From NCBI GenBank assembly GCA_011634665.1, contig WAEK01000007.1, positions 518,001 to 582,000 on the forward strand: DNA of 64,000 nucleotides, read 5' to 3'. Source of the DNA: Mortierella sp. BCC40632 (lineage: Eukaryota; Mortierellomycota; Mortierellomycetes; Mortierellales; Mortierellaceae). A program made the position numbers and the translations under genes. Under the pieces are notes generated by a model. That model had not been told where the DNA came from, searched no databases, and saw only the letters and a program-made list of their open reading frames with translations. How positions within the stretch are numbered: the stretch's first letter is position 1; each line of letters starts with the position of its first letter. Shown here piece by piece: positions 35,064 to 60,714 of this stretch.

Positions 35064-38000
35064 ATGGCTCCCAGACAAGCTTCAGTAGTTCTCTTGCCCG
35101 GTGACGGTGTTGGTCCCGAGGTCATCGCCGAAGCCAAGCGTGTTCTTGAGCTCGTATCCAAGATCAGATCCCACAAAATCAATATTGCCTTCAAAGAAGA
35201 GTTGATTGGTGGCGCGTCCATTGACGCTCATGGTAAGTGCTCAGACTCGTGAACAATCGCCCATTGTTCTCCGCTTTGGCAGCAACAATTTCGCTTTTTT
35301 ATTGCAGGATGGAGGAGAGACGAGATGAGGAGGCAGGGAGACGAGAGTAGAGATGGAGTGAGGAGGTCAACTCCGCCTCCAGCCGAGCTCTCTCTTTCTC
35401 TCTTTCTCTCTTATCTTCTCTCTCTCCAGACGAACAAATGGCACAGGCCCTTCTTCCCCGGCCCTGTCCGGTTGCCCGCCCAGGACTCTTTGCGCGCGAC
35501 GAGCTTGTTTAGTCTCTTCAGGCTGAGATTGCGATTCGAGTCGAGTCAAGTGGAGAGTGGGAGTGGGCAGGAACCTTAACTTTGTGACTACGCATCTCCA
35601 ATATTCCTTAACCTGGATGACTGACCTGAACCTTGATATGCTCATCGCCATCTCTAAATAGGCACTGCGCTCACTGACGCTGCTCTTGCCTCGTGCAAGG
35701 CATCAGACGCCATCCTCTTGGGTGCTGTTGGAGGCCCCAAGTGGGCCACAGGAAACCCACGCCCTGAGCAGGGCCTCCTCGCCCTCAGGAAGAGCCTTGA
35801 CCTCTACGCCAACCTTCGCCCTTGCACCTTTGCCTCCGACTCTTTGATCTCACACTCACCTCTCAAGGAATCCATCGTCAAGGGAGTCGACTTTATGATG
35901 ATCCGCGAGCTCGTAGGAGGAGTCTACTTTGGCGACCGTAAGGAGGCCACCGAGGAGGATGGCTATGCCTACGATACCATGCCCTATTCCAAGGCTGAGG
36001 TCGAGCGTGTCACCCGTCTCGCCGCTGCCCTTGCTCTCCAACACGAGCCTGCCTGGCCCATCCACTCGATCGACAAGGCCAACGTTTTGGCCTCTTCTCG
36101 TCTCTGGCGCAAGACGGTCACGGATGTGATTGAGAAGGAATTCCCCCAGCTCAAGGTGGGCCACCACCTTGTGGACTCTGCCGCCATGTTCCTCGTCAAG
36201 AACCCCCGTAGCTTGAACGGTGTCATCCTCACGGAGAACATGTTTGGAGATATTCTCTCGGACGAGGCTTCGGTCATTCCTGGATCGCTCGGTCTCTTGC
36301 CTTCGGCTTCGTTGAGCGGCCTTCCCGAGAAGGGCAAGCCATGCTTGGGAGTATACGAGCCTATTCACGGATCGGCCCCCGACATTGCTGGAAAGGGCGT
36401 CGCCAACCCCGTAGGAACCATTCTCTCTGCTGCTATGTTGCTCCGTTACTCTCTCGGCATGGAAGCTGAGGCTGTTGCTGTCGAGGACGCTGTCCGCAAG
36501 GTCTTGGACGACACCGAGACTGCTGGATTCGCTTTCCGCACTCGTGATTTGGGTGGAGACAAGACCACCAAGGAGATGGGTGACAAGATCCTCGAGACTC
36601 TTGAGAAGGAGCTCGTCGGTCTCAATGCTGCTGAGGGTGCTCCCATTTCTCGCCCCTTGGCCCTTGGACGCCCTTCAGGACGTCGTGGTTTGACCATCTC
36701 GGAAAAGATTATTGCCCACAACGCTATTGGTCTTACCGAGCCCGGTAACATCAAGCCTGGCGACATGGTCTGTGTCTCTGTCGATTGGACCTTGGCCTCC
36801 GAGTTGACCTGGAAGGGTATGGACAAGACCTACGATCAGATGGGCCGCCCCAGCGTCTTCCGTAACGATCGCTTCTGGCTCGCCATCGACCACACGGTCG
36901 ACCCCAGCATCAACCATCTCCCCAAGCCTACCGAGTTGATCAAGGCCTCGACCGACTTTGCAGAGGAAGCCAAGTTGATTGATTTCTATGGCCCCAACTA
37001 CTCGATTCTTCACACCGAGTTTTACCGTGAGCGTGCCCAGCCCGGTCAGTTGATCATTGGTGCCGATTCGCACTCGTGCTCTGCTGGTGCTGTCGGAGCC
37101 TTTGCCGTCGGACTCGGAGCTGCCGATGTAGTCATGCCCTTGGTCACTGGCGAGACCTGGTTCAAGGTCCCCGAGACGGTCGAGATTCGCTTCGTCAACC
37201 AGCCTCCCTTCGGTATCGGTGGCAAGGATGCTATTCTCTATGTCCTTCAGCAACTCAAGCGTAACACGGTTGCTTTCGAACGTTCTGTCGAGTACACTGG
37301 TCCTGGTTTGAAGCATCTTTCTTGCGATGCCCGTTTCGCTTTGGCTAACATGGCTACCGAGTTTGGAGGTATTGCTGGTGTCTGCGCTGCAGATGAGACC
37401 ACGGCTGCTTACATTGCTAAGCGCAAGAACCCTCAGCACAAGAACTCGGCCTTGTACTTCAAGGCTGATGAGGATGCCCAGTATGCCGAGACACACGTCA
37501 TTGATTTGTCCAAGGTGGATTCGTTGATCGCTCTTTACCCCGATCCCGATAACTGTGTTCCCGTGGATGAGGCTGCTGGTACCAAGTTGGACGGATGCTT
37601 CATCGGTGCCTGCACAACTGCTGAGGAGGATCTTATCTTGGCTGCTTTGGTTCTTGAGGCTGGTCTCAAGAAGGGTCTTGTTCCTGCTTTGGGTGGTAAG
37701 CGTAAGGTCACTCCTGGCTCTGTGCCCATTGTTGCCAAGCTCCGTCGTTTGGGACTCCTCAAGATCTATGAGCAGGCTGGATTCGTTGTTGGTGCCCCCG
37801 GATGCTCGTACTGCATTGCCGTCGCCGCCGATCAGGCCGGTGAGGGTGAGGTCTGGTTGTCTTCTCAGAACCGTAACTTCCGTAACCGTATGGGCAAGGG
37901 TGCTATCGGTAACTTGGCTTCTGCTGCTACAGTTGCTGCCTCTTCGTTCGACATGAAGATCCGTAACCCTCGTGACTTGCTCGACAGCATTGACCATGCT

Positions 38001-38735
38001 CGCTATGAAGAGATGTTGGAGCAGTGGATTGAGAAGGGTAAGCCCGTTGTCTACTCGGAGCCTGCCCCTATCTACTATGATGCCAGCGGTGCCGGTACCT
38101 CGCTCCCCGCCCCCCCACCTTCGTTCTCGGCTACGATCAAGGGTCGTGTTCAGCGCTTTGAGGACAACATTGACACGGACGCCATCATTCCTGCTCAGTT
38201 CATGCCCGGTACCTCGGATCAGGATCTCGGTACCCACGCCTTCCAGTTTGTCAAGCCCGAGTTCCGTCAGTTGGTCAAGGATGGTTTTGACATTGTTGTC
38301 GGTGGTGGTGGTTTCGGTTCTGGATCTTCTCGAGAGGAGGCTCCTCGTGCGCTTTTGGGAGCTGGTGTCAAGGCTGTGATTGCCAAGTCGTATGCTTTCA
38401 TTTATGCTCGTAACCAGCCCAACATGTCGTTGCTCGGTATCACGATCGATGAAGAGTCGTTCTATACTCATGCTCAGGAGGGTGCTGAGGTGACGATCGA
38501 TGTCAAGGGTCGCAAGGTCATCTGCGGTGGTGAGGAGTACTCGTTCGGTTTGTCGTTGATGGAGGAGCGTCTCTTGTCTGGTGGAGGTGTGACTGAGATG
38601 TACAAGAAGTATGGCAAGCAATTGTTCCGTGTTGCAACTGCTCCTGAGACGGCCTCTGCTGGTGGCTGTGGATCTGAGGCCAAGGGCCCTGCTTCCAAGA
38701 GCAACTGTGGAGATGACAGCGAGCTCGCCTGGTAA
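35064..38735 (+). CDS. Fused 3-isopropylmalate dehydrogenase and aconitase-type isomerase
   Basis: Exons 35064-35232 and 35662-38735 give one protein of 1080 residues. Residues 1 to about 365 are a complete 3-isopropylmalate dehydrogenase (Leu2 type): [11 protein letters not shown], the LRP motif, [13 protein letters not shown], the catalytic-region segment [32 protein letters not shown] and the NAD-binding [14 protein letters not shown]. From about 390 a complete aconitase-superfamily protein follows: [20 protein letters not shown], iron-sulphur Cys at about 707 ([10 protein letters not shown]) and at 771 and 774 (PGCSYC), then [10 protein letters not shown] swivel (small-subunit) domain runs from about 882, with [13 protein letters not shown] and GSGSSREEA. 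Isopropylmalate isomerase and the dehydrogenase catalyse consecutive leucine steps, so the fusion could channel 3-isopropylmalate. However, the isomerase half is not a close match to ordinary fungal Leu1 (DHTVDP in place of the usual DHNVPT), so its substrate is uncertain. A separate Leu1 may exist elsewhere. Confidence 0.93.
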
Positions 38736-40705: not shown

Positions 40706-41609
40706 GACGAGAGTAGATGAGTTGGGGGATGAGGATGAGTAGAAAAAAAAAAATAAAATAAAATAAAAGAAGAGGGGATGATGAGGTCAATGCAAAGAGA
40801 GGAGCTTTAGAAAAGTGGCCGTGTGTTTTTTTTTTTTTTATATTGAGGCGGCGTGAGAGAGAGAAGAAATAGAAGAGGTTTCTTGTCCTTTCTCTATGAA
40901 AAATGGCGGAGGTTGAGTACCTCTCGGCTGATAAGTCCGAGAACTTTCAGGGACAAAGTCTAGTCCAATGACTTGCCACTGTTTTTTTTTTCTTCTTCTT
41001 TTTTTTCCCTCTTAATGTCACCATGATTCTGAATAGGAGAGTCTCGTTGTGGGCTGGTGTATGACCCCATGTTGGTCCAAGTGAAGGGCAGGGACGTCAG
41101 GCGACCGCTGTTGCCGAGCGTTTCTTTTTTTTTTTTTTTGCAAGTATATTCTCTCTTTGGTGGCCAGGATTCAGGCCTGAGCAGGACAAGTTTTCTACAA
41201 TGCATCACACAGACTTTAAATAGGCTGTTGACCTACTTTGGACCAAAGGAGGAAGAGGAAGAGGAGGAGGAATTCATCAAAAGTCTAAGAGCCAAACCAA
41301 TAATCATCGCTATGACATTCTCTTAAAAGGGCAGCTCTTCCTGGATTACTTTGGGAGCAAGGCCTCTCCTAAAAACTCGGGACTTAGTGATAAGAGTAGT
41401 CCAAGTCGCGTACCCAACCTAGCCGAATACTGTAAGTTGTCCTAATACTCGTAGATCGTGGAGACAGTCAGAGATAGAGAAAAGGCGAGAATTTCGTGCC
41501 ACCGTTTTGCAGTAACAACAGTAATAGCTCCTCCATTAAAAAAAAAAAAAACTCCCATCGAGACAACTCCAATTCTCTCCCATCTTCCGTCTTTGCTCGA
41601 AACAACCCC
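40706..41609. other. Gene-free stretch
   Basis: Divergent region between the oxygenase gene and paralogue A. It contains poly(T) runs (40828-40839, 41124-41140) and a (GAGGAA)n stretch near 41248-41270. No supported gene. Confidence 0.5.
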
Positions 41610-43491
41610 ATGCCTCCAAAAAGACCAGCTTCCTCAATGTCCAAAGTAACTGGCTATCGGTCTTTCGCAATGAAGACCAAGAGCAAAGCAGTCAGGTTTA
41701 CAGAGCCTCAACATGAGATCATGATCGAGTTTATGAAGGTTCCAGGTCATTTCAATCTCATTTATACTCCTGGCCAGAAACAGGAACCCCTCTCGTTTAT
41801 GGGCGTGGACAAGGTCCAGGGTTTCGACAAGATGGCAGATTACTTCAAGGAGCAGCTCCTGCGGAAACAACATTTGATCAAAAATATTGACATTGCGGTC
41901 ATCAGTGGCACAATGATGGAACAGCGTTGGATTAACCTAATGCGAAAGTATGCCGAATACCTTGTTCTCAAGGACATGACTGGAAGTGACGAAGGAACTG
42001 GACGAGAGAACAGCTCGGTTTGGAAGACGGCAAAGTTCAATCGAAGAGAATGGCCAGCCTTCAAGGAGGTTCACGCGCTTTTCAGTCAGAATCCCGAGCA
42101 GAACCCAGGAAAATCACAGGCAGATGTGCAAAATGGGTACCTCTTCCTTTCTTCCTCTTTCTTTCTCACTTTCTTTCTTCTTTGTTCAGGTGTTGCTGCC
42201 TACCAACCCTTTCATTCATCCCCTTCAAAATGGCTATAGGTCTTTACCATATGAGCATGACACCCGCCAAGACCACGACGACCCGTTAAGCCTTCCAGGC
42301 CCATCCAACTGGCATGCTAGAATCAATGAACCACGACCTGCTCCTTCCAACATGGCGAATCCCACTCTCCTCCAGCCAAAGCCCGAGAGATCTAGCGTAG
42401 CACTCTTGGACCCCAAACAAGAGCCATTGGAGCCTCAACTCATGCCCTTTCAACAATCTCTAGCTCTCACACCACAACCCCCCATATCCTATCCGCCAGC
42501 TTCCCGAGTGTCACTTGAACCTGAATCAGGACCTTTGCAACTGCATCTGGCTCCCACTCTCTGGCCTCTACTATCCCTTCCATCAGCTCACCAAGAGCCG
42601 TGTGAGGTGGCACCTATTATGACACGAGAAGCAAATCACACCCTACCTTCTTTGGAAGTCAGCGAGGAAAGTCACGATGCAGAAAATCCCGAGTTGCGAC
42701 AGTCAACAGGGTTCTCAGAAATGAACTGGAATCAACAGAAGCAAATGGAGGCCCAGCTAGATGACGAAAGTAGCGGAACAAATCGATTGAAGTTGAAGGC
42801 GATGGAAAGGCAGGTGAAGGTTGCGGTACAGAGATATGAAGAGATGCAAGAGAGAGTCAGGAGCGTACAAGAAAAGTTTGAAAAGATGGAGAGACAGGCT
42901 GAGATGACCCGACAACAATATGAAGAAATGGAGAGACGAGCCGTCTTTTCACAACAGAGAATCGAAATGGTTGAGAAGCAGAATGAGGCTATGCTAAAGA
43001 TGATCGGAACGATTGCAACACAGAACTCGACTTTACTACAGAGTGTCCAAGATCTACGGATGCAGATCAATGGGGAACGAAAGAGAGGAAGCACTACGCA
43101 GTCGGAGGAAATGCAAAAAGGGACCGTCTTGTCGATCATGCAACGGCTTTCTACGTATTACCTCGCATCAAGTGAGTTTAGACAGGATTGTAAGTCCAGG
43201 TGGAAAAGAAAGAGCAACAGAAAGAGTAGAGTAAACAATAGCAGCTCCGAGAGTGATGACGACAACAGCTTTAGCGAGGACAGCGGTTCAAGCGATGAAA
43301 GTTGTTCTGACGATGGCAACAGCAGCAACAGCAGCAGCAGCTCTGGCGACGACCGTCGAGGGAACCGAGGAAGTCGGGATCGTTGCAGAGATCGTCGGGA
43401 TCGCAAGCGTCCCAAGCTTGATAAAAAGGGTAAAAGCGTTGCGGGAAGAGCAAAAACCAAGGAGTGTGCTTTAATAGCAATACATACTTAG
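41610..43491 (+). CDS. MADF/trihelix-like coiled-coil protein, paralogue A
   Basis: Exons 41610-42136 and 42240-43491 give 592 residues. I do not recognise a named gene. The N-terminal block (about residues 30-125) begins RFTEPQHEIMIEFMKVPGHF and ends QRWINLMRKYAEYL. Its spacing of helices and closing W..LMRKY resembles MADF/trihelix DNA-binding modules; that is a shape judgement only. A short RREWPAFKEVHALF segment follows, then the intron, a Pro-rich middle with GPSNWHARINEP, a coiled coil of about 150 residues with repeated EEM(Q/E)ER units, then Lys/Arg-rich, Ser/Asp-rich acidic and again Lys/Arg-rich parts. This would suit a nuclear protein. Compared with C and D, the tail runs past the shared KKGK end by a dozen residues. 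Start MPPKRPASS matches paralogue D. Confidence 0.8.
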
Positions 43492-44043
43492 TAGCTGAAA
43501 CGAGAAAGAAAAAAGCACAGTCTTTCTTTTTACTGCAAAGAGCAGCCAGTGGAAGTGTTTCCCTTTTTGGAGCTCAGGATGAGGACTTGGAAGGAGCTTT
43601 TTCTTCTGTTGCTGCCATGTCAAGCATCCAAAGGAACCATAATGGAAGGGTAAATGATTGTTTTACTGATAGATCTTCAAGTGTGGAATCCTTCCATAAG
43701 AGGTGTGTCCCTGCGATAGGAGCTGAGTTAACTGCAGATTCAGAGCACTGCAACAGGGTCCTGGGCTCTCTCATCAGATCTAGGGATAGTTGTCTCAATA
43801 GGGTTTTGTCGCGTCCATAGGTTTGTGAATAGAGTCAGCCTTTGTCCATCTCTTGCAAATCATAAAGGAAAAAAAAAAAAAAAAAAAAAAAAAAAGGCGA
43901 CATGGAGATTCCTCTGTTCGTACCACCATGAACATGTTTATTGAATAGCCAGTATATTTCTCTCTTACTCCTGTCGCCCATCACATTTTCTTTGCTACGA
44001 ATCCTCTCCATCTATTCTCAACCTCAACACAAAAGTCGACATC
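43492..44043. other. A-B intergenic region
   Basis: 552 bases. A poly(A) run lies at 43869-43895. Segments around 43550-43760 loosely resemble sequence behind paralogue C and near 54300, fitting repeated duplication of a gene plus its 3' flank. No gene seen. Confidence 0.4.
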
Positions 44044-45834
44044 ATGTCTCCAAAAAGATCGACATCCAATTCTAACCGAGCCAAGAAAAAGAAAGCCAAG
44101 AATGGAAAAAACATATTCACCGAGGCTCAGCAAGAGATCTTGATCGAATTTATGAAGATCCCAGCTAATTTCAATCTCGTTTATGGTCCCGGTCAGAAAA
44201 AGGATCCCCTCCGATTCTCAGACACGACCAAGAATGAAGCATTCGAGAGCATGGCAGCTCACTTCCTGTGGAGGGTCCTAGAGAGTCAAGAGTTGGTCGA
44301 GAATCTCAATCTCAATGCCATCGATGGTGCGGTGGTTGAGAGACACTGGATTCAAATGATGCGCAAGTATACCGACCACCTAGCACTTTTGGACTTGGCC
44401 GGGAGTAGTGAAGCGACTGGACAGGCTATGACCGCAACTCAGAAGACAGCAAAATGCAATCAGAGAGAGTGGCCATCCTTCAAGGAGGTTCACACGCTTT
44501 TCAGTCAGGATTCTGAGCAAAACTCAGGAGACTCGCAGGCTGGCGAACAACGAGAGTAATCCTTTCTTTTTTTTCTCCTTCCTCTTCCTTGTTCAAAGAT
44601 TGCTGCCTACCAACTCTTTTTCAACTCTTTTTCCTTATAAAGTCGCGATAGGTCTTTATCAGATGAGTACGACGACCATCAGGACCACGACGACTCATTA
44701 GGCTTCCCAGGTCCGTCCAACTGGCACACCAGGGTCCATAGCCCACAACCTTCTACTCCTAGCATCATGGGTCCCACTCTCCTCACACCAACACCTGAGA
44801 AATCTGGTACAGCATTTCTGTCTCCTAAACAGGAGTCAGTGGGTCATCCTGGACCAATACCTTCCCAGCCATCTCCAGCTTCCACTCCACAATCTCCCAT
44901 ATCTTCACAACCATCCCCAGCTCTTGCTCCACAACTATTGGCGTCTTCTCTACCAAATCGTCAAGAGTCATCTGCATCAATAGCCCATATTGAACAAGAA
45001 AGGATAGAGATTCTACTTCCTTCAGAAGGTGACGCATTACCAGAGTCTCCAAACGAGGGCTCAGTCCTAGATAATGCCTCGAATGTGTCACTTACTCCCG
45101 CACCCTCTATTCACCAAAGCAAAAGGACAAGGATTTACCAAGCACGCAGAGGTCAGGACATGGAAGTGCTCGAGTTACAGCAAACGACTCCCTCCTTGGA
45201 AATGCAACAGATGGAACAGGAGCTAAAGGAAACCAGGGATCATCAAGCGACTTTTGAGAAGAGACTTCAAAGAATCGAGGAGATGGTAAGCCGAGCCGAT
45301 GTTGCATTACAAAGGATGGAGGTAATGGAAAAGCAGGGCGACACTATGCTCCATCGACTTGGAGCGATGGAGATGCAAAATAATAATACACTACAAATGA
45401 TTGGAAGGGTCGAGAAACAAAACAAAACTTTACTGCAAAGAATCAAAGAGCTACAAACCCAACTCGATGCAGAGCGACAAGGAGGCACGACGCGATCAGA
45501 GAGAATGAGCAGAGCTGCTGTTGTATCAATGGTAGAGAATCTTGCTGCTATCTATTTCCCATCGAACGAGCCTCGTTCTGGCGATCATGAGCATAGGCAG
45601 AAGAGAAAGAGTCGCACAAAGAGTCGCGAGCGTAGAGTCGATGAAAGCAGATCCGAAGGTGATGAAGACGAAGACGACGATGACGATGGTGACGACAGTA
45701 GTTCTAGTGATAACCACCGAGAAAGCCGAGGGAGCAGGAATCATCGCAAGGGTCATTGGGGCCACAAGGGTAAACGTGTTGTGGGTAGAACAAAAAGTGG
45801 GAAGCGGACTTCAATAGCTACACAGGCTTCGTAA
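44044..45834 (+). CDS. MADF/trihelix-like coiled-coil protein, paralogue B
   Basis: Exons 44044-44555 and 44652-45834 give 564 residues. The architecture is the same as A. The start is MSPKRSTSN, and the N-terminal module runs from FTEAQQEILIEFMKIPANF to HWIQMMRKYTDHL. Then come the REWPSFKEVHTLFSQ segment, an intron in the same place and phase, and a Pro/Ser-rich middle with GPSNWHTR. A coiled coil with MEVMEKQ, LGAMEMQNN and IGRVEKQNK units leads to an acidic run of about ten Asp/Glu and a basic tail containing HKGKRVVGRTKSGK. The identical intron phase (2) shows A-D arose by duplication after the intron was gained. Function unknown. The sequence immediately before the start codon (AAGTCGACATC) matches that before D. 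Confidence 0.8.
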
Positions 45835-46429
45835 CTGAAACGAGAAAGAAGGAGGAGGAGTGATTGCAAAGAATAGGGATCCATCATCATTCTCCTTTGG
45901 TTAGTTGGAGGTGGTTTCTTCATAATAGGAAGACTCGACAGCATCAAACTTTCTGCAGGAACCTTATTCATTTTTTTCTCCATTGCAGCTTTGTATTGGC
46001 CAAGAAGAATCAAGGGATACTTCTTTATCTGTCCATGCAGCGCGTTTTTTTTTTTTTTTTTTACTAGTTGCACTGGAAGCCTCTTTAGTCTTGAGGCGAT
46101 GGTTGCTCCGATATGACTCAGTCGCGTCTACAGTCTAGCGTATAGTTTTCCATGTCCTTCAGCTCTCGTGAATCATTAAAATGGGCAATGGAGTCAAAAG
46201 CGATAAGGAGGTTCCTTTGCTCGAGCCACACCCACACAACAATACATTTAAACAAATATTTATTCGTACTCCCTGTTTCTCTTTTATCTCTTTCTCTTTC
46301 TCTTTCACTCTCTTTCTTTCTCTCTCCATCTCTCTCTCGTTGACTCTCTCCATCTTTCCTCCACTTCCATTCTATCGACCATTCATTCATCCTCCATCTA
46401 CTGGTGCCTTATTCACACGGAACAACATC

Positions 46430-48652
46430 ATGTCTCAAAAAAGACCACGCGCCAGCTATGGAAAGATTGTTCAATGGACCGCCAAGAAGAGAGTGAAGCG
46501 AGGAAACATCTATTTCAATGAGACTCATCAAAGGATCCTGGTCGACTTTATGAAGGTCCCATGTCATTTCGACCTTATCTATACTCCTGGCCAGAAAAGG
46601 GATCCCCGCCATCCCACAGGGGTGGCCAAGGCCCAGGGCTTCAAAAAAATGGCCGAATACTTTGGGAAGACGCTCCGTCAGAAAGCTGGATTAATCGGGT
46701 ACATCAATCTCGAGGCCATCAATGGCGAGATGATCGAAAGTCGATGGGCAAACATTATGAATAAATATACCAGATACCTTAGTTCCAAGAACTCGGCGGA
46801 TCGTGGGAACGAAAACCCATTCCTCGAAGAGGTGGATGCACTTTTCGCTCAGAATTCTGAGAAGAGCCCCGAGGACTCGCAAGTCCAAACGCGACAAAGG
46901 TACCATTTCTCTTCCTCTTCTTCCTCCCTTTTCCCTTTTTTGTTCCAATGTTACTGCCTACCAACCCTTCTCATATTTCTCCTTTCTAGAGTCGTTAAGT
47001 CTGTCCTAAATGGGCGCGACAACCAGGGCTCCAGAGACTTGTCACGCCTTCCAGGCCCTTCCAGCCGGGATACTAGACTTCGCAGCTCCCAACCTGTTCC
47101 TTCCAACCAGGATGCTGGACTTCGCAGCCCCCAACCCGTTCCTTCCAACCGGGACACTAGACTTCGCAGCTCCCAACCTGTTCTTTCCAACCAGGATACT
47201 GGACTTCACAGCCCCCAACCCGTTCCTTCCAACCGGGATAGTAGACTTCGCAGCTCCCAGTCTGTTCCGTCCAGCCGGGATACTAGACCTCGTAGCCCAC
47301 AACCTGCTCCTCCCAACCGGGATACTAGACTTCGCAGCTCCCAACCTGTTCCTTCCGACCGGGATATCAGACTTCACAGCTCACAACCTGTTCCTTCCAA
47401 CACGGTGAATCATACCCTCCCTACTCCAACACCCGAGAAATCTGGCATCACTCTTCTGATTCCAAAGCTAGAACTACAAGACTCTCGACCTGCACCCTCT
47501 CCTCCATCTTCAGCTTCCACGACACAACCTACTCCATCCCTCCCATCGGTTCCTCAAGAATTGCCAGTTCCTGCTCAGCCTCTTACACCTCCTATATCCG
47601 CTCGTCCAGAACTGTCCGAGGCAGCATCCACTACAGAGCGAGAATCGCTTCAGATCCCTCCCTCCTTGGACGATAATGAGCCACCAGAGTCTCCTGATGC
47701 GAGTGGCACTCTAGACAATGCTTCGAATACCCCTTCTTCTTCTCAAACTTTGATCCAATCAACCAACAGAGAAGAAACTCGACCAACAAGGAGATCTCAG
47801 GGTATGGATAGTCTTTTGTTCCGACGGACGACTCGCTCTTTGGAAAAGAAAAGAAAGGAGCAGGAGCAAAGCGGGGTCAAAGACCATCAAGCCACGCAAG
47901 AGGAGCGACTGAAGAGAATCGGGGAAGTGGAGAACGCAGCCGATCTTGTACAACACATCAATGCAGAGATGAGGAAGCAAGCTGAAAAGGCCCAACAGAG
48001 ATTCAAAGAAATGGAGAAGCAAGTCAAGATGACACAACAAAGATTTAAAGAGATGGAGAAGCAGGTGGAGACTGTGTTGGGGAGACTCGAGTCGACAGAG
48101 AAGCAGAGCGAGACGACTTTGGAGAGAATTGAAGGGATCGAGAGACAGAACGAGACGACACAAAAGAGGATTGAATCAATCGAGAAGCAGAACGAGACGA
48201 CGTTACAAAAGATTGAAGGGATCGAGAAACAAAACAACTCGATTCTTCAGGGTGTCAAGGCATTACAGATGCAAAAGGATACGGAACGACAAGGGAATGC
48301 GATGGTTCGGTCAGAGGAATTGGAAAGGGTCAATGTTTTGTCGATTATGCAGCGGCTTTCTACATTCTTGATCACATCCGAGGAGCCTAGACAGAGTCGT
48401 AAGAATCGACGGAGAAGAAAGAGTGATAGGAAGGGTCGGGAAAGGAAGGTCAGCCATGACGATGATGACGATGACGATGATGATGACGACGACGATAGCA
48501 GCAGTTCAGAAAATGATGGTGGTCGTAACTTTAGTGATGATAGCAGTGAAGGTGGTGACCGTCGAGGGAACAGGGAGAGTAAGGGTCATCGCCAAGGTCG
48601 TCGAGGCCATAAGGCTGATAAAAAGGGAAAGCGTGTTGTGAGTGCAGCATAA
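46430..48652 (+). CDS. MADF/trihelix-like coiled-coil protein, paralogue C
   Basis: Exons 46430-46899 and 46990-48652 give 710 residues, the longest of the four. The intron (90 bases) contains no in-frame stop, so it could also be read through; splicing is inferred from the paralogues and the GTACC...TTTCTAG borders. The N-terminal module runs from FNETHQRILVDFMKVPCHFD to SRWANIMNKYTRYL. After the intron come eight 14-residue repeats, then a Pro-rich stretch. A coiled coil of about 200 residues follows with regular units such as FKEMEKQVKMTQQR and IEGIEKQNETT. Last come a run of 13 Asp and a basic tail ending KKGKRVVSAA. The tail stop codon falls where A and B read through, so a small change there lengthened or shortened the family's C terminus. 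Confidence 0.82.
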   Translation: MSQKRPRASYGKIVQWTAKKRVKRGNIYFNETHQRILVDFMKVPCHFDLIYTPGQKRDPRHPTGVAKAQGFKKMAEYFGKTLRQKAGLIGYINLEAINGEMIESRWANIMNKYTRYLSSKNSADRGNENPFLEEVDALFAQNSEKSPEDSQVQTRQRYHFSSSSSSLFPFLFQCYCLPTLLIFLLSRVVKSVLNGRDNQGSRDLSRLPGPSSRDTRLRSSQPVPSNQDAGLRSPQPVPSNRDTRLRSSQPVLSNQDTGLHSPQPVPSNRDSRLRSSQSVPSSRDTRPRSPQPAPPNRDTRLRSSQPVPSDRDIRLHSSQPVPSNTVNHTLPTPTPEKSGITLLIPKLELQDSRPAPSPPSSASTTQPTPSLPSVPQELPVPAQPLTPPISARPELSEAASTTERESLQIPPSLDDNEPPESPDASGTLDNASNTPSSSQTLIQSTNREETRPTRRSQGMDSLLFRRTTRSLEKKRKEQEQSGVKDHQATQEERLKRIGEVENAADLVQHINAEMRKQAEKAQQRFKEMEKQVKMTQQRFKEMEKQVETVLGRLESTEKQSETTLERIEGIERQNETTQKRIESIEKQNETTLQKIEGIEKQNNSILQGVKALQMQKDTERQGNAMVRSEELERVNVLSIMQRLSTFLITSEEPRQSRKNRRRRKSDRKGRERKVSHDDDDDDDDDDDDDSSSSENDGGRNFSDDSSEGGDRRGNRESKGHRQGRRGHKADKKGKRVVSAA
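47057..47392 (+). repeat. Eight in-frame 42-base repeats in paralogue C
   Basis: Eight copies of a 14-residue unit of the form PSNRDTRLRSSQPV, with alternating variants (NQD, LHSP, PRSP). The unit corresponds to the single GPSNW.ARINEPRPAPSN motif of paralogue A and GPSNW in B and D, so C has amplified a conserved family motif. Confidence 0.9.
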
Positions 48653-54075: not shown

Positions 54076-54709
54076 GGGAACACCAAGATGATGGATAGAC
54101 TCGCTCCTTGATTTTTGACTCCTCTTTCAGTCCTACTCCTGTCCTTCATCTGGCTCTGTAAAAAAAAAAAAAAAAAAAAAGGAATAGAGGAGAGGAGAGA
54201 GGAGGTATACATACATCAATGGAAACAAATACAATGTAGCAATGGTGGGAACAAAACAAAAAGGCAAGATCTCTCCCCCCCCCCTCTCTATTCTATGGAG
54301 CCGAGTGTTGTATTCAATGGCGGTGTTCTTCATAAAATGATAACAGGAGAACATGGTACAATGAAGCAGGAAACCTTGTCCCTCACTATGCTCTGCATGT
54401 GACCTTTGAAGAGTTGTTTGGCGGGTCAAAAATCCAAAGAAACGAGAGCAAAAGACACAGCCAGTGTCTTTCTGGATAAGTTTTTTGAAATAAGAACGAG
54501 CCAACTGGTCATTCAAGGATGGGGATTCTTCTTTTGGCTAGAACAGTGTGTAAATTTTGAGGCTAGAGTTGCATCAGTCACGTCCACAGTCGGGTACAGG
54601 ACAATGGGCAAAATAATTATTTCTGGGTAGTGGCTTAATGGTACTGACCAGGGCACGGACCTCTTCCGCAATTGTTTAAAACAATGAGATTTGGGCCTCT
54701 TCCACTCTT

Positions 54710-54781
54710 CACTTGTCCATACTCTCTCACTTGTCCACACTCTCCCACTTGTCCACACTCTCCCACTTGTCCATACTCTCT
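54710..54781 (+). repeat. Four 18-base tandem repeats before the XPG-Fanzor start
   Basis: Four consecutive units of CACTTGTCCACACTCTCC with one or two changes each, ending six bases before the ATG at 54788. The repeat is in frame with that ATG and an upstream ATG at 54713, so it could code an N-terminal LSHLST repeat. It could instead be an untranslated leader minisatellite or protein-binding site. Confidence 0.85.
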
Positions 54782-54787
54782 TTCCTA

Positions 54788-57700
54788 ATGGGCATCAATG
54801 GCCTTTGGCCGTTTCTTGCTCGCAATGGCTACCGCCCCGAGCCCTCATCCTCGGTCCCTTCCGTTACTCCCTCTCCTACTTCCCCTCCCACTCTGCGAGT
54901 CGATGTGCCTGGAGCATTCTACCCCCGGATCCGTCAAGCTTACAGCAGGTACAAAGGCACTCGGGCGCATCGAGCCCTCGAGACCGCCATTACAAACTCC
55001 GGCCTGCCCAAGACATCTGTGCTCTACCTTGACGGGGCACCTCCTATCGAGAAAAAGTTGACACATGACGATCGAGCATCAAGGCGGACCCAAGCCCTTG
55101 TGAAAGCAAGGGCTAATCTTGATCTCCTGAAGGAGAGGATCCAAGGTCAAAGACGGGTCAGACGATGCCACTTCAGTCGTGTCGAGAGAGATCTCGCTGC
55201 TGGGTTTCACTGGTCACCAAGTGAACGGCAAGGGTTCGCTTTACACATGCGAACCAACGGCTGGACCGTACGCGAATGCAGTTTCGAGGCAGATGTGGCG
55301 ACAGCGACTTTTTGGCTTACAGTACTGTCTGGACTATCGTCCGTCCATTCCGAGGAAAATATCACCGATATGATATATCTCAAGTGCTTTTGCATCTCGA
55401 AATCAGTCGAGATCAGCTATCGGCGCTTTGTGTCGTCTCCGAGAACGATTATACAAAAAACATCACGAATCTGGGCCCAGTAACAAATCACAGATTGATC
55501 AAGCCTCTAGTGGGACCAGGTATATACTCTACCTCTCTGCGACTGAATTTACATTTCATCATGCCAAGTTGCTTGCTTCGTTCTAACCACTTTAACCATT
55601 CAATCGACTATCTTAGATGCTCCTTCGATAGTCGAGGCGTATCTTGGCCTGGAAGAAGTCGAACGAAAGAACACGAACAATGCATCGTTTGACACCGCGA
55701 AGCGAGTGTTTTTTGATCAAGTACAACAATTGGATCCCGCGCCACCACATTCTTCTGAGGAGTACCTGAAACTTGCTGAGGAACTTGATGAAGCAAGGCA
55801 GCTGCACAGGGCCACAGTACGGTCAACTGCGGGTCCTTCCAGGCAAGGAACTGTAGCCAACAGTTTCCTCACTGTGGACAGGCGACATGAAGTCAAGTCA
55901 GGGTCTGGGGGAAACCTCAAGTTCCGCCCCCGCTACTCCGCCAAGACTAGATCTCGAAAGATACAGCACGACCCTCCTGAAACAATGGAGATGTACAAGT
56001 TTAGGCCATGGAGAGAGCCTCCCAGGATCGAAGGCGGGACACCATCAGCCTCTACTTCAAGGCCAGCTAGGGCTAAGAAAGCAAAGGTCGAGAAGAAGGA
56101 TGCCAGAACCATGGAAAAAAAGGGCCTAATGTACACGATGGGGCTCCAGCATCCTATTGTGACTCTTGAGGTCGGCACCCTCCATACCAATCTGGAGGAA
56201 GCTATCGACGGGACCCAGTTCAACAAGCAGGTCATTCTCCCTAAAATCAATCAAGCGTTACAAGACATTGTCGAAATCGCGTCAGAAACCCGCCGTATTT
56301 GCGAGCGCGCCATCGTTGTCTTTTTGTCGCGATTGACGATAGATGATATTGACGAGGGCGACAGAGAGATCCTGGATAAACTCTGTCCGAGGGTATCGAA
56401 TACGCCAGGTCCTGACGACGACATGGACGATCAAGAACCAACTGAAGCCGGGACCACTAATGCAGGGTTCTTCCAGGCACTGTTGATCTGCATTTACACC
56501 AAGAGACTTCCGCGAACTGGAGCATCGGCTCCAGCGATCAAGCGACTCGTTGAGAAAGTCAATGATGTCATCCCGACTATGAGGAGCTCTGCCATCATCC
56601 AAAGCCAGGTGCCATACACTGCAAGCAACCTCCTGGGATCAACAGCGACGGATATGGCTGTCTCGATGAGTGTCCACTTCAGGAAAGGATCACTGGCGTT
56701 GTCTGAACAGGTAAAGAAATGGATACCTATTATATGCAGTTATGTATCGTGTTAACAAGCCTGATGCCTGAACTAAGAAAAAAAATATATATGATTTTGG
56801 TCCCATAGGTCCAGGCTCGCGTGAAAAAGAACCTCCTTCCAGCGGGTACACCTTCTAGGATTCTGCCAAACATTCCTGCAGCCGAATTTTTTTTTTTGCT
56901 TCTCAACCGAGCAATAGGCAATCGCCGACGACTGTCGCCAATGTCCTCCATGGAGGACAAGTTCGTCACTCTCTCAGAGGTCGACTTGATCACCTTGCTC
57001 TGGCGCGACGTTGATCTTAAGGCCCTCTTCCGAAAACTTGTCTGTGACGACGGAAACAGCGACGATAGTCTCCAAATCGTTCTAGCCAACCTTACAACCA
57101 AGAACCCAGGAATTGTACTCAATTCAATCATCACTGACATTGGGCGCAAAGATGATCAGAGCGGAAACACAGGCCAAAGGATACGTAACAAGAACCGGTC
57201 ATACAAGAAGAATGTAAAGGCTCTGTCTATTCGAGAGCTGAAAGAACATCTAACGGAGATCCGCGATGAAGACTTTTCGGCGATCGGGTACGCCAAACGC
57301 GGATACACTCTTCATGGGTCCATCCGAACAGACGGGTTTCGCCTCCAAGTGTTGGCGTTCAAGCTAAAGGAGTTGAAGTCGGTCAAGTACAAGCAACTCG
57401 ACCAAGACAAGGTCCCCTTACGCATCAACTCGACGGTTGGTGGAACAGATGATTCGCTTACCGAGATCCGGAATGTCGTGAGGTCCAAAGACGACATCGT
57501 CGAGCTATGGGGGGATAAGACCTTACCTGAAGAGATCGCAGTCCTTGGGATCGATCTTGGGCAAGCGTTTACCGTCGGGGCCAGCGTCCTATTACCAAAG
57601 AGCGGAAGATACGATGCTGCGAGGGAAAAAGAAAAGAGGAGAAGGAGGAGAAGGAAGGAGAGAAGGAAATCACGAAGACGCAAGAGAAAAAAACAAAGGG

Positions 57701-58629
57701 AAAGCCATTGCTAAGAAGGTGGAGAAGGAAGGTGGGGAGGGAGGAGGGTCTGGGGCCAAAGGCAAGGGTAAAGGGAGGGCCACGGGCTTGGGGAAGGATA
57801 AGCAAGAGCCCTTGCCTTTTTCAAGTTTGGCGGCCAACCAAAAGGCACTCTACCAGCCAGTCTTCAAGCATCGGCGATGGGCTGAGACGAGAAAGCAAGA
57901 GGCGCCCGCCGTTGGCAGGTCGGTGAGCGACATCGAGAGTGAGTTGCCTCCTCTCCGCGGCAATGACATCGACGTCGAGAAGTATGTGACAGATATCAAG
58001 ACTGTCGAGAGCCAGCTCCATTCATTCTACAACAACGACCAGAAAAAGGTTTGGAAGCGCCGTTCGTGGGATCGGAAGAAGGCCATGACGGAGGAGTATC
58101 GTCAATTGGCGGACCAGCTTTTGAAGATGGTGGGTGGGTCCACTGCAGCCAAGAGAGAGGACGAGAACAAGGTTGTCATTGGGATTGGCCTGGGAGAATT
58201 TGGCTCGAACATCTGTCTGTCCTCGCTGCACACGTCCTTCAGGTCATACTTTGTGCAAAAGGTATTGTGGCATTGCTTAGGTTTGCAGAGATCGCATACA
58301 AATGAAGCGACAAAACTCTAACTTTTTATTTTTTCTTTTTCTTTTTCTTTGGACAGGCTCGCTCACTTGGTTACATCGTGGTCGGGGTCAACGAGTACTA
58401 TACGTCGAGAAAGTGCCCTGTCTGTGAGGAGTTTGTGGGACAGGTAAACATTCGTCGATTGTACTGCCCCAAATGCAAGACCTATATCCATCGCGATATC
58501 CTTGCCGGGCACAATATCGCGAACGTAGTCCGGGGCCATTTACTGAACCAGCAGCGGCCCCTTTACCTCCAACCCCGCACAGTCCAATTTCTCGTAGTTG
58601 GTGGCAAAGAGGGCCATACTACGCCGTGA
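54788..58629 (+). CDS. XPG/FEN1-like nuclease domain followed by Fanzor (TnpB-like) RuvC nuclease; two frame breaks
   Basis: Exons 54788-55519, 55617-56710, 56809-58261 and 58357-58629, spliced by good GT-AG sites. The N-terminal part is an XPG/FEN1-type flap nuclease: MGINGLWPFL, an Asp in VDVPGAFYP, LDGAPPIEK, a Glu/Asp cluster in VRECSFEADV, then GDSDFLAYS and VVSENDYTKNI. Between EADV and GDSD (55294-55303) about 15 residues are missing and the frame changes, so this half is damaged. The C-terminal part is a Fanzor, the eukaryotic relative of RNA-guided TnpB. It has RuvC-I with Asp at 57553-57555 (VLGIDLGQAFTVG), a candidate RuvC-II Glu (IGIGLGEFGSN), a zinc ribbon CPVC...CPKC, and RuvC-III Asp in HRDILAGHNIA. 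A second frame change falls between RuvC-I and RuvC-II in a purine-rich tract, probably the A7 run at 57687-57693. The second break could be an assembly slip. The stop lies 158 bases before paralogue D. Confidence 0.85.
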
Positions 58630-58787: not shown

Positions 58788-59286
58788 ATGCCGCCAAAAA
58801 GACCAGCCCCCGACTATGGGGCGACTGGTTATCAAACCATGAAGAAAGCCAAGGGAGAGAATACGAGTATAAGGTTCACTATGGCCCAGCAAGAGGTCTT
58901 GGTCGACTTTATGATGGACCCAGAGCATTTCAAGCTCATTTATGATCCTAATAAGGAATGTAATCCTCTCCAACCCAATGGCAAGGCTCAGAGCAGAGGG
59001 TTTAAGCAAATGAAGGATTACTTTTTGATGAGACTGGGTCAAGAGAGAGAATTGATTGGAAATCTGGACCTCGATTACATTCGGACCAACATCATCAAAA
59101 TTCGATGGAACAATGTGATGAAAAAGTATACCAATTTGCTTAATTGCGGCAACAGAGAGTCTTCAAGTCGAAACAAGAGAGAATGTCAGTACCTCGAGAA
59201 AGTACATGCCTTGTTCAATCCAGCTCCCAGACAGAGTCAGCAAGGCCCACGAGTCAATCCACAGCCGACGTAAATCCATTTTTTTT

Positions 59287-59334
<48 letters not shown>

Positions 59335-60714
59335 AATGTCCAAGATGTCGCAAAAGACTACCCATTTTCTCTTTTTCTCTCTACTTTCAAATAGTGCTCG
59401 GTCTTTATATGAAGAGCACGACTACCATGACCGCACAATAGCGGGCCCTTCCAACTGGTATACCAGACCCTCTGGGTTACAGCTTGCTTCTTCCAACATA
59501 GTGAGTATCTCTCCTCCAGCATCAGCCCCAAACAGCCCCAAAAGATCCAGCGTACTTGAGAGAGCCAATGCATCAAAGAGAGTCAGTTCACCCACTGGAG
59601 TTCCTGTACCCACGAAAACCATTGCACCCAGAAGGGTCAGTACACGCAAGAGAAAAAGTGTACCCAAGAAAGTTGTTGTGCTGAGAAGAAGTTCACGCAA
59701 GAAGCCCAGTCCATCTAATTGCAAAATCGAACCCAAGAGAGTCAGCCCACCCGAGACAACCACTGCAGCCAAGGGAACCACTGCAGCCAAGGGAACCACT
59801 GCAGCCAAGGGAACCACTGCAGCCAAGAGAACCACTGCAACCGAGAGAGCCATTGTGCCCAGGGGAACCAATTCCCACGATAGGTCTGGTGTACAACGGC
59901 CTCTCCCGAGACAAGAAAGATCTTCTCATCAAGATACTTCCGAGGACGAAGAGTCGTCCGAATCTCAAAGTGAGGATGGACCTCTGGACGAAGGATCCGA
60001 TTCAGAGGCCTCATTTAGACCTGCCTCTCCTAGGAACCGGTCCACGAAGACAAGAATGCAATCAAGAAGTATGCATCTTGATCAAGTAGACCCCGAATTA
60101 TGGAGGATAGAGATCTCCTCTAGAGTCGACTTGTTGGAAAAGGAGGCTAGGGAGGCCAAGGAAGCCAGCGGACTTAGGGAGGCCAAGGAGCGCAGGGAGT
60201 CCAGTGAGAACGAAAAAAGATACCAGAGTAAATTCATGGGGATGAAGCTTCGGACGGATGGAATAGAAAAAAAGGTCGACTCGGAAAAGAATCGGATGAA
60301 TGAAGTACAGCAAAGAATCGAGAGAATGATTGAGAGGTTGGGAGATGTAACGGAACAGAGGCTCAACATAATGCAGAAGCAGCACGACTTTCAGCAACAA
60401 CGTCAAGATTATACTGATGCTCAGTTAAATTTAATATGCCAAAGTATCTTGCAAATGCAACCAGGGAACAACCATCTGGGGCAACCTCTGAGACAGCCTC
60501 TGGATGATGACCGGAGCAATGGACTGAGGAGAGAGAATAGCAATAGTAATTGGCAGAGTAGAGTCGAAGAAGGCGAATTCGAGGAAGGTGAAGTCGAACG
60601 AGGCAACAGCCAAGACTCCTATAATCGATCATCCCGAGAGACTAGGGATTTTTACCAAGGCCATCAAGATTACAGAAGTGACAAGAAGGGCAAGCGCATT
60701 GTGGGTGCAGCTTA

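Follow-up and report, generated by a model that had tools for sequence, protein, structure and literature searches.

Fanzor1 proteins share the signature D-X(125-275)-[TS][TS]-XX-C4 zinc finger-X(5-50)-RD, as given in the available part of PMC3627910, and, according to the portion available of PMC10711439, two further hallmarks, a TDG motif in the WED domain and an alternative RuvC glutamate. The presumed target of TnpB is the sister chromosome without the element, a cut there letting recombination restore the element, and the accessible text of PMC10432273 proposes the same for Fanzor. Here we describe a Fanzor1-type gene that begins at position 54788 of a 64,000-nucleotide stretch of the Mortierella sp. 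BCC40632 genome (GenBank GCA_011634665.1, contig WAEK01000007.1, positions 518,001 to 582,000, forward strand; hereafter, the window). The gene belongs to a family in which an XPG/FEN1/EXO1-type domain and a Fanzor1-type RuvC domain are fused in one predicted protein. As far as our literature search reached, this fusion is unpublished: the search, which covered few subscription papers, found nothing that combined Fanzor with XPG, Fanzor with Mortierella, or an RNA-guided nuclease with a transposon and Mortierella; TnpB and Fanzor with flap endonuclease led to one paper, on large-cargo integration, and XPG with TnpB to one on Cas12a.

The fusion is documented in the first place by relatives of the gene. 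A search of 5.8 billion proteins returned 21 relatives, down to E = 1.8e-257, and a search with the Fanzor half returned 79, which together make 89 different relatives; both searches scored only the approximately 8000 candidates with the most words in common. The named sources are all Mortierellaceae (Mortierella, Linnemannia, Benniella, Gryganskiella, Podila, Dissophora, Entomortierella, Actinomortierella, Haplosporangium, Gamsiella and Lobosporangium), some metagenome entries being without a name. Profiles of both halves match 29 of the 89 relatives, 15 of these 29 starting with Met-Gly, and a conserved middle region separates the halves. No more than 136 residues precede the conserved part in any of the 59 relatives that lack an XPG match, which is what truncated gene models would give, and the automatically assigned database names describe one half each, some members being called 'XPG-I domain-containing' and others 'Cas12f1-like TNB domain-containing'. 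When a close relative of the XPG half was sought beyond this group, among proteins of 0.55-1.75 times the query length sharing short words, there were 81 matches, the named ones all from Mortierellaceae genera and the rest unnamed. A viral source was considered and rejected: query A3 found no relative in IMG/VR, and the rows shown from the viral structure library look, by length and by name where given, like one half each.

The arrangement of the two domains within a single genome bears on the explanation that two adjacent genes have been wrongly joined by gene prediction and by earlier reading, which we regard as scarcely credible. In the 49.9-Mb assembly (62 contigs), the 64 zinc-ribbon matches fall into 60 places and the 40 XPG matches into 33. 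A zinc ribbon lies 0-5 kb downstream on the same strand at 19 of the 33 XPG places (336 to 3523 bp) and on the opposite strand at none, with 4 of the 33 having a zinc ribbon upstream, on either strand. The reverse count gives 19 of 60 zinc-ribbon places with an upstream XPG place; the 41 for which none was found nearby would fit a wrong join, as would the many database entries that are partial models, but the like order and strand at the 19 XPG places, the gene models from several genera and the conserved middle region all speak against it. So does the gene structure. In the model of the relative P0001 the EXO1-like fold ends at residue 354 and the Fanzor-like fold begins at 461, and exon 2 of the window copy (55617-56710) is one open frame collinear with P0001 310-645, spanning both fold limits, so that the join is crossed inside one exon. 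An earlier note on this DNA had read an XPG/FEN1-family domain and a Fanzor as one gene, linking the halves by splice phase; the open frame of exon 2 carries the link beyond phase, relatives in several Mortierellaceae genera support the single gene, and structure prediction places both folds within single models. Of the two outcomes which that note had named as refuting, one, that relatives always have the two domains in separate genes, is contradicted by the relatives that carry both in one gene.

The second half of the protein has the character of a Fanzor1. Search patterns for the two parts of the signature both fit in 18 of the 89 relatives, with a D-to-TS distance of 152-275; taken alone, the RuvC-I pattern fits 66 and the zinc/RD pattern 23, the other 71 relatives, many of them partial, being without one or both. 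TDG is present in 68 of the 89, and a glutamate, a candidate for the alternative RuvC residue, stands ahead of [YFL]x[TS][TS]xxC in 23, the search pattern itself having demanded Glu. In the predicted structures the Fanzor fold covers approximately 480 residues of SpuFz1.

The first half passes the Pfam gathering score in one of eight proteins (P0007, XPG_I_2 29.2 versus 24.2); XPG_I falls under its cut-off of 24.9 in P0001, P0007, P0008 and P0010 (19.3-22.6), and the other four have no XPG match. The predicted structures contain the FEN1/EXO1/XPG fold over approximately 270 residues, with about 15-20% identity to solved chains, and the solved structures that match best by both sequence and fold are DNA-acting members. 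Conservation was read from 118 rows, of which 65 to 107 have letters at a given position: the seven metal-binding carboxylates are kept in all but one to three lettered rows, the E160 position being Asp, the N-terminal Gly2 is found in 60 of 60 rows, and the arch Lys/Arg is also present. Correspondence to FEN1 positions was assigned by motif. Such near invariance of the active site makes it highly improbable that the XPG half is catalytically dead and serves only to hold DNA ends or the target, since an inactive domain would not need these residues; nothing direct favors this reading, although part of the XPG-I region is missing from the window copy. It also appears improbable that the XPG half works as a module for nucleic-acid binding or RNA processing, trimming guide RNA for example, instead of as a DNA end processor. 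Some members of the FEN/XRN/vhs fold group do act on RNA, and vhs and XRN proteins occur at lower rank among the viral structure matches, but the kept metal-binding carboxylates and the DNA-acting character of the best matches argue against it.

The window copy, which lies on the forward strand, is a relic, its reading frames being too broken for protein production. Positions 54627-58577 match the closest paralogue, C1:564060, with 96.8% identity (blastn), beginning with a common 5' non-coding stretch (54627-54787), leftward of which there is no more match to this paralogue. The N part of the XPG/FEN1-type domain (54788-55303, with the MG start, RVD, LDG, EK...R and EAD) is 37-40% identical to the N-termini of P0001 and P0002. 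The remaining XPG-I/H3TH region (55297-55519, GDSDFLAYS ... NDYTKNITNLG; 51-56% identity to the same proteins), which extends to the end of exon 1 at 55519, is in another frame: the stretch between EADVA and GDSDF is absent, and the loss of 43 nt at the broken point (55295-55296), seen on alignment with the closest paralogue, has put these two motifs into separate frames. Three inferred GT..AG introns follow, at 55520-55616 (phase 1), 56711-56808 (phase 0) and 58262-58356 (phase 0), the joins of which fit P0001 308/310, 645/651 and 1062/1064. Exon 2 encodes the XPG tail, the linker and the start of the Fanzor REC. Downstream of it, the Fanzor WED/RuvC-I part (56809-57686, IRTDGFRLQ and VLGIDLGQ), the first 273 residues of which are 49% identical to P0001 651-910, is separated by a frame change in a Lys/Arg-rich stretch (57687-57700, where the closest paralogue has one base fewer) from the RuvC middle part (57701-58261, 49% identity to P0001 894-1062). 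The zinc ribbon and last RuvC motif (NEYYTSRKCPVC..CPKC..HRD) occupy 58357-58577. Pfam recognizes Cas12f1-like TNB in 58357-58626 (E = 1.5e-12); its best match in the broken XPG half is a weak XPG_I (E = 0.24), and this half is not recognized by Pfam alone. Homology stops at 58577, where the paralogues diverge, upstream of the stop codon at 58627, and the native 3' end and right-end region are gone. All motifs quoted in the earlier note (MGINGLWPFL, LDGAPPIEK, GDSDFLAYS, VLGIDLGQ, CPVC...CPKC and HRDILAGHNIA) are in place. Its well-phased run into the RuvC part holds for the three introns, with joins that fit the relatives, and fails for the broken frame of exon 1, and a continuous coding frame is further contradicted by the extra base near 57687 and by the end of homology ahead of the stop codon.

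The XPG N part of the closest paralogue has a separate frame change. Between this paralogue and the window copy, dN/dS is 0.12 and 0.38 in the two larger XPG blocks, 0.26 in exon 2 and 0.20 in the first RuvC block, three short blocks having 0 to 2 changes, one of these blocks being the second RuvC block, with 0 silent and 2 replacing ones. Relative to a more distant paralogue, C3:126, which has stops within the RuvC blocks, the values are 0.38 and 0.54 (XPG), 0.54 (exon 2) and 0.25-0.37 (RuvC and zinc-ribbon blocks).

Defined ends with 8-bp duplications were found in three paralogue families, B, C and D; the window copy is truncated, and the paralogue comparisons established no left end for its own family. 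Family B (C25, C2:1641, C3:1908, C15 and C4:784) measures approximately 6.9 kb in C25 and C3, and family C (C4:2772, C7:1957, C11:1402, C2:1634 and C15) approximately 7.9 kb in C4 and C7. The family C ends are approximately 12.7 kb (C2) and 13.9 kb (C11) apart and family D (C1) spans approximately 14 kb, with further DNA inside these copies; the C11 copy is inserted into a second element of this kind, at its right end. The right ends of family C are sharp, as all five copies share the last 34 bases from the motif start and then diverge. The duplications read GAGCGTCT (C4), CGTCTGGT (C7) and CGCGCCTT (C11) in family C, CCACTACC (C3) and TAGTCCGA (C15) in family B, and AGGAGAAG in family D at C1; that at C2 is a run of A. 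TGACGT stands exactly 5 nt ahead of the duplication at five of the nine left ends read (C4, C7, C11, family B at C3 and family D at C1), family C at C2 has TACGTCATCG in its place, and family B at C25 shows neither a target duplication nor the TGACGT motif. At C2 and C15 the left end of family B comes directly after the right end of family C, and in these tandems (G000:C2:1626560-1646121 and G000:C15:125500-133032) the same 8 bp separate the two elements and also follow the second, a pattern that would fit two uses of a single target site. At four of the five left flanks C4, C7, C11, C3 and C1, the motif ahead of the duplication is TGACGTCA or TGACGTAA, which is also the classical CRE/ATF binding site; elements with such a motif at the left flank may aim at promoters.

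Upstream of the gene, on the opposite strand, family B carries broken pieces of a MULE-like transposase (SWIM 7.9e-7, MULE 3.8e-4), and similar pieces occur within family C and beside C6:2619. The SWIM score of 28.9 exceeds its cut-off of 19.6, and the MULE score of 21.3 is below its cut-off of 27.6. MULE transposons typically duplicate about 9-11 bp of target. The copies read in families B, C and D have 8 bp, and the term used here is therefore MULE-like only; fungal Fanzor MuDR elements have a 9-bp duplication, according to the available part of PMC3627910. The presence of these transposase pieces in and beside the elements lends some weight to the main rival of the mechanism that we propose below, namely that the XPG half trims flaps or gaps at the joints left by excision or integration by the MULE-like transposase, with the Fanzor separately guarding against loss. 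FEN1-like enzymes act on flaps, as is established for FEN1. MULE transposons generally move without an XPG domain, however, and the covalent link joins XPG to the Fanzor and not to the transposase, which is encoded on the other strand; we consider this rival unlikely.

Past the stop codon, at 87-128 bp, families B and C and also C6:2007, C11:1388 and C12:1330 carry CGGTGACGTAAT; the window's family has only GGTGAC at this position (71 bp in C1), and C6:2619 has no CGGTGACGTAAT within 330 bp. Genome-wide there are 49 CGGTGACGTAAT sites versus 7 for the reversed control, and 19 of the 64 zinc-ribbon matches are followed on their own strand by such a site no more than 800 bp away; no match has one upstream or on the opposite strand. 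The 30 sites that are unlinked to a zinc ribbon indicate that CGGTGACGTAAT is first a terminal-repeat feature. As a guide-RNA mark by itself it was rejected, given these unlinked sites and the hairpins seen by eye in one (L076) of the 16 among them that were fetched (L064-L079). Several of the fetched sites have terminal-repeat-like sequence past the motif and, by eye, no hairpins, a pattern that suggests a larger Fanzor-less transposon family using the same ends. L076 (G000:C5:2453260-2453650) has intact hairpins and CGGTGACGTAAT but nothing close by that matches a zinc ribbon, and in this it is similar to a ghost guide-RNA locus, by comparison with the SpuFz1 ghost loci in the accessible text of PMC10432273.

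The hairpin ahead of CGGTGACGTAAT contains a 6-pair helix (P1), the only helix tested for covariation, that is 97.6% paired in seven chosen sequences, two of them from one family. Its covariation score was matched by 0 of 500 shuffles and drops on sliding, while the two-sided pair changes (32 of 500 shuffles) and the further pair types (422 of 500) are not exceptional. Six of the seven right ends were folded, with z-scores of -2.5 to -6.6 and shuffles as good in 4 of 200 for one and in none for the others. In four of the six folds the outer stem is closed by the final bases of the folded stretch, a boundary set by copy comparison in families B, C and D only, so that a scaffold would stop directly before the flank, which is the likely guide. 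A conserved GNRA-capped third stem was discarded, as the cap register differs in families E and F. The available part of PMC10711439 reports three stems for Fanzor1 reRNAs and a scaffold that includes the terminal repeats and target duplication, and the right end described here is likely to be a guide-RNA scaffold as well.

Taken together, these observations are best explained if the window gene is a broken copy of a Mortierellaceae transposon gene family whose intact XPG-Fanzor1 protein makes an RNA-guided cut, trims the ends with its XPG half and so promotes copying back of the element, a reading to which we give even chances. It is based on two halves and a conserved middle in one gene across genera, on the kept active-site residues and both folds in one model, and on the defined ends and 8-bp duplications of three families, the TGACGT at a fixed distance from the duplication in five of the nine left ends read, and the right-end hairpin. 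Under this reading, the MULE-like transposase would move the element, and the right end would be transcribed as the guide-RNA scaffold, the flank beyond the element serving as guide and TGACGT, whole or in part, as target motif. For the intact protein, the prediction is an RNA-guided cut at the element's empty target site; the XPG half, as an active 5' nuclease acting at the Fanzor cut, would probably resect or trim the 5' ends, favoring copying over end joining, and repair of the trimmed break would copy the element back. Flap processing for mobility or repair, as suggested in the earlier note, would be a plausible role of the XPG half. More tentatively, and with somewhat less than even confidence, we propose a one-protein cut-and-resect homing machine, in which a Fanzor with its own EXO1-type resection nuclease would drive each RNA-guided break at an empty site into transposon copying and away from end joining. 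That the covalent partner comes from the FEN1/EXO1 family points to the DNA end as the step that matters once the cut is made, and with the fusion the copy-back model can be tested directly through point mutations in a single protein. The fusion is also a natural blueprint for a programmable nuclease that processes ends on its own and would, if cut-and-resect is true, be a natural joining of a programmable cutter to a repair-choice enzyme.

Two neighboring features of the window may be mentioned. The gene following the relic (58788-60712, forward strand), which has a weak Myb/SANT-like match, belongs to a local gene family with three relatives in the window (41478-48649, forward strand) and three elsewhere in the genome; it was rejected as a partner of the element, as none of these six matches lies inside the element copies read. 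A single open frame at 35658-38732 (forward strand, 1025 amino acids) matches Iso_dh (1.1e-112) and then aconitase-type domains (5.8e-73 and 5.1e-15), and its predicted product, an isopropylmalate/isocitrate dehydrogenase joined to aconitase-type domains, is a LEU2-LEU1-like fusion.

In comparison with described systems, the XPG half resembles the FEN1/EXO1/XPG (Rad2) family in its N-terminal Met-Gly, seven carboxylates, arch Lys/Arg and fold, and differs from it in forming the N-terminal part of a transposon-borne Fanzor. The other half shares with the Fanzor1 proteins SpuFz1, GtFz1 and PpFz1 the RuvC/zinc-ribbon order, TDG, a candidate Glu before [TS][TS]xxC, the fold, the position as transposon cargo and a folded right end; the solved Fanzor1 chains, of 590-726 residues, match only this second half, which here is preceded by the XPG-type nuclease domain. 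PpFz1 is likewise a fungal Fanzor1 with an added domain, but that domain, FRI, is a cyclophilin-binding insertion in RuvC and not N-terminal, and the part available of PMC11423790 does not describe it as a nuclease. The MuDR-type Fanzor1 elements ROr-4, PBl-3 and MCi-4 are similar in that they place a Fanzor1 in Mutator-like elements of early-diverging fungi; according to the accessible portion of PMC3627910 they have 9-bp duplications and encode no MuDR transposase, whereas the elements described here have 8-bp duplications, a MULE-like transposase in two families and a fused XPG half.
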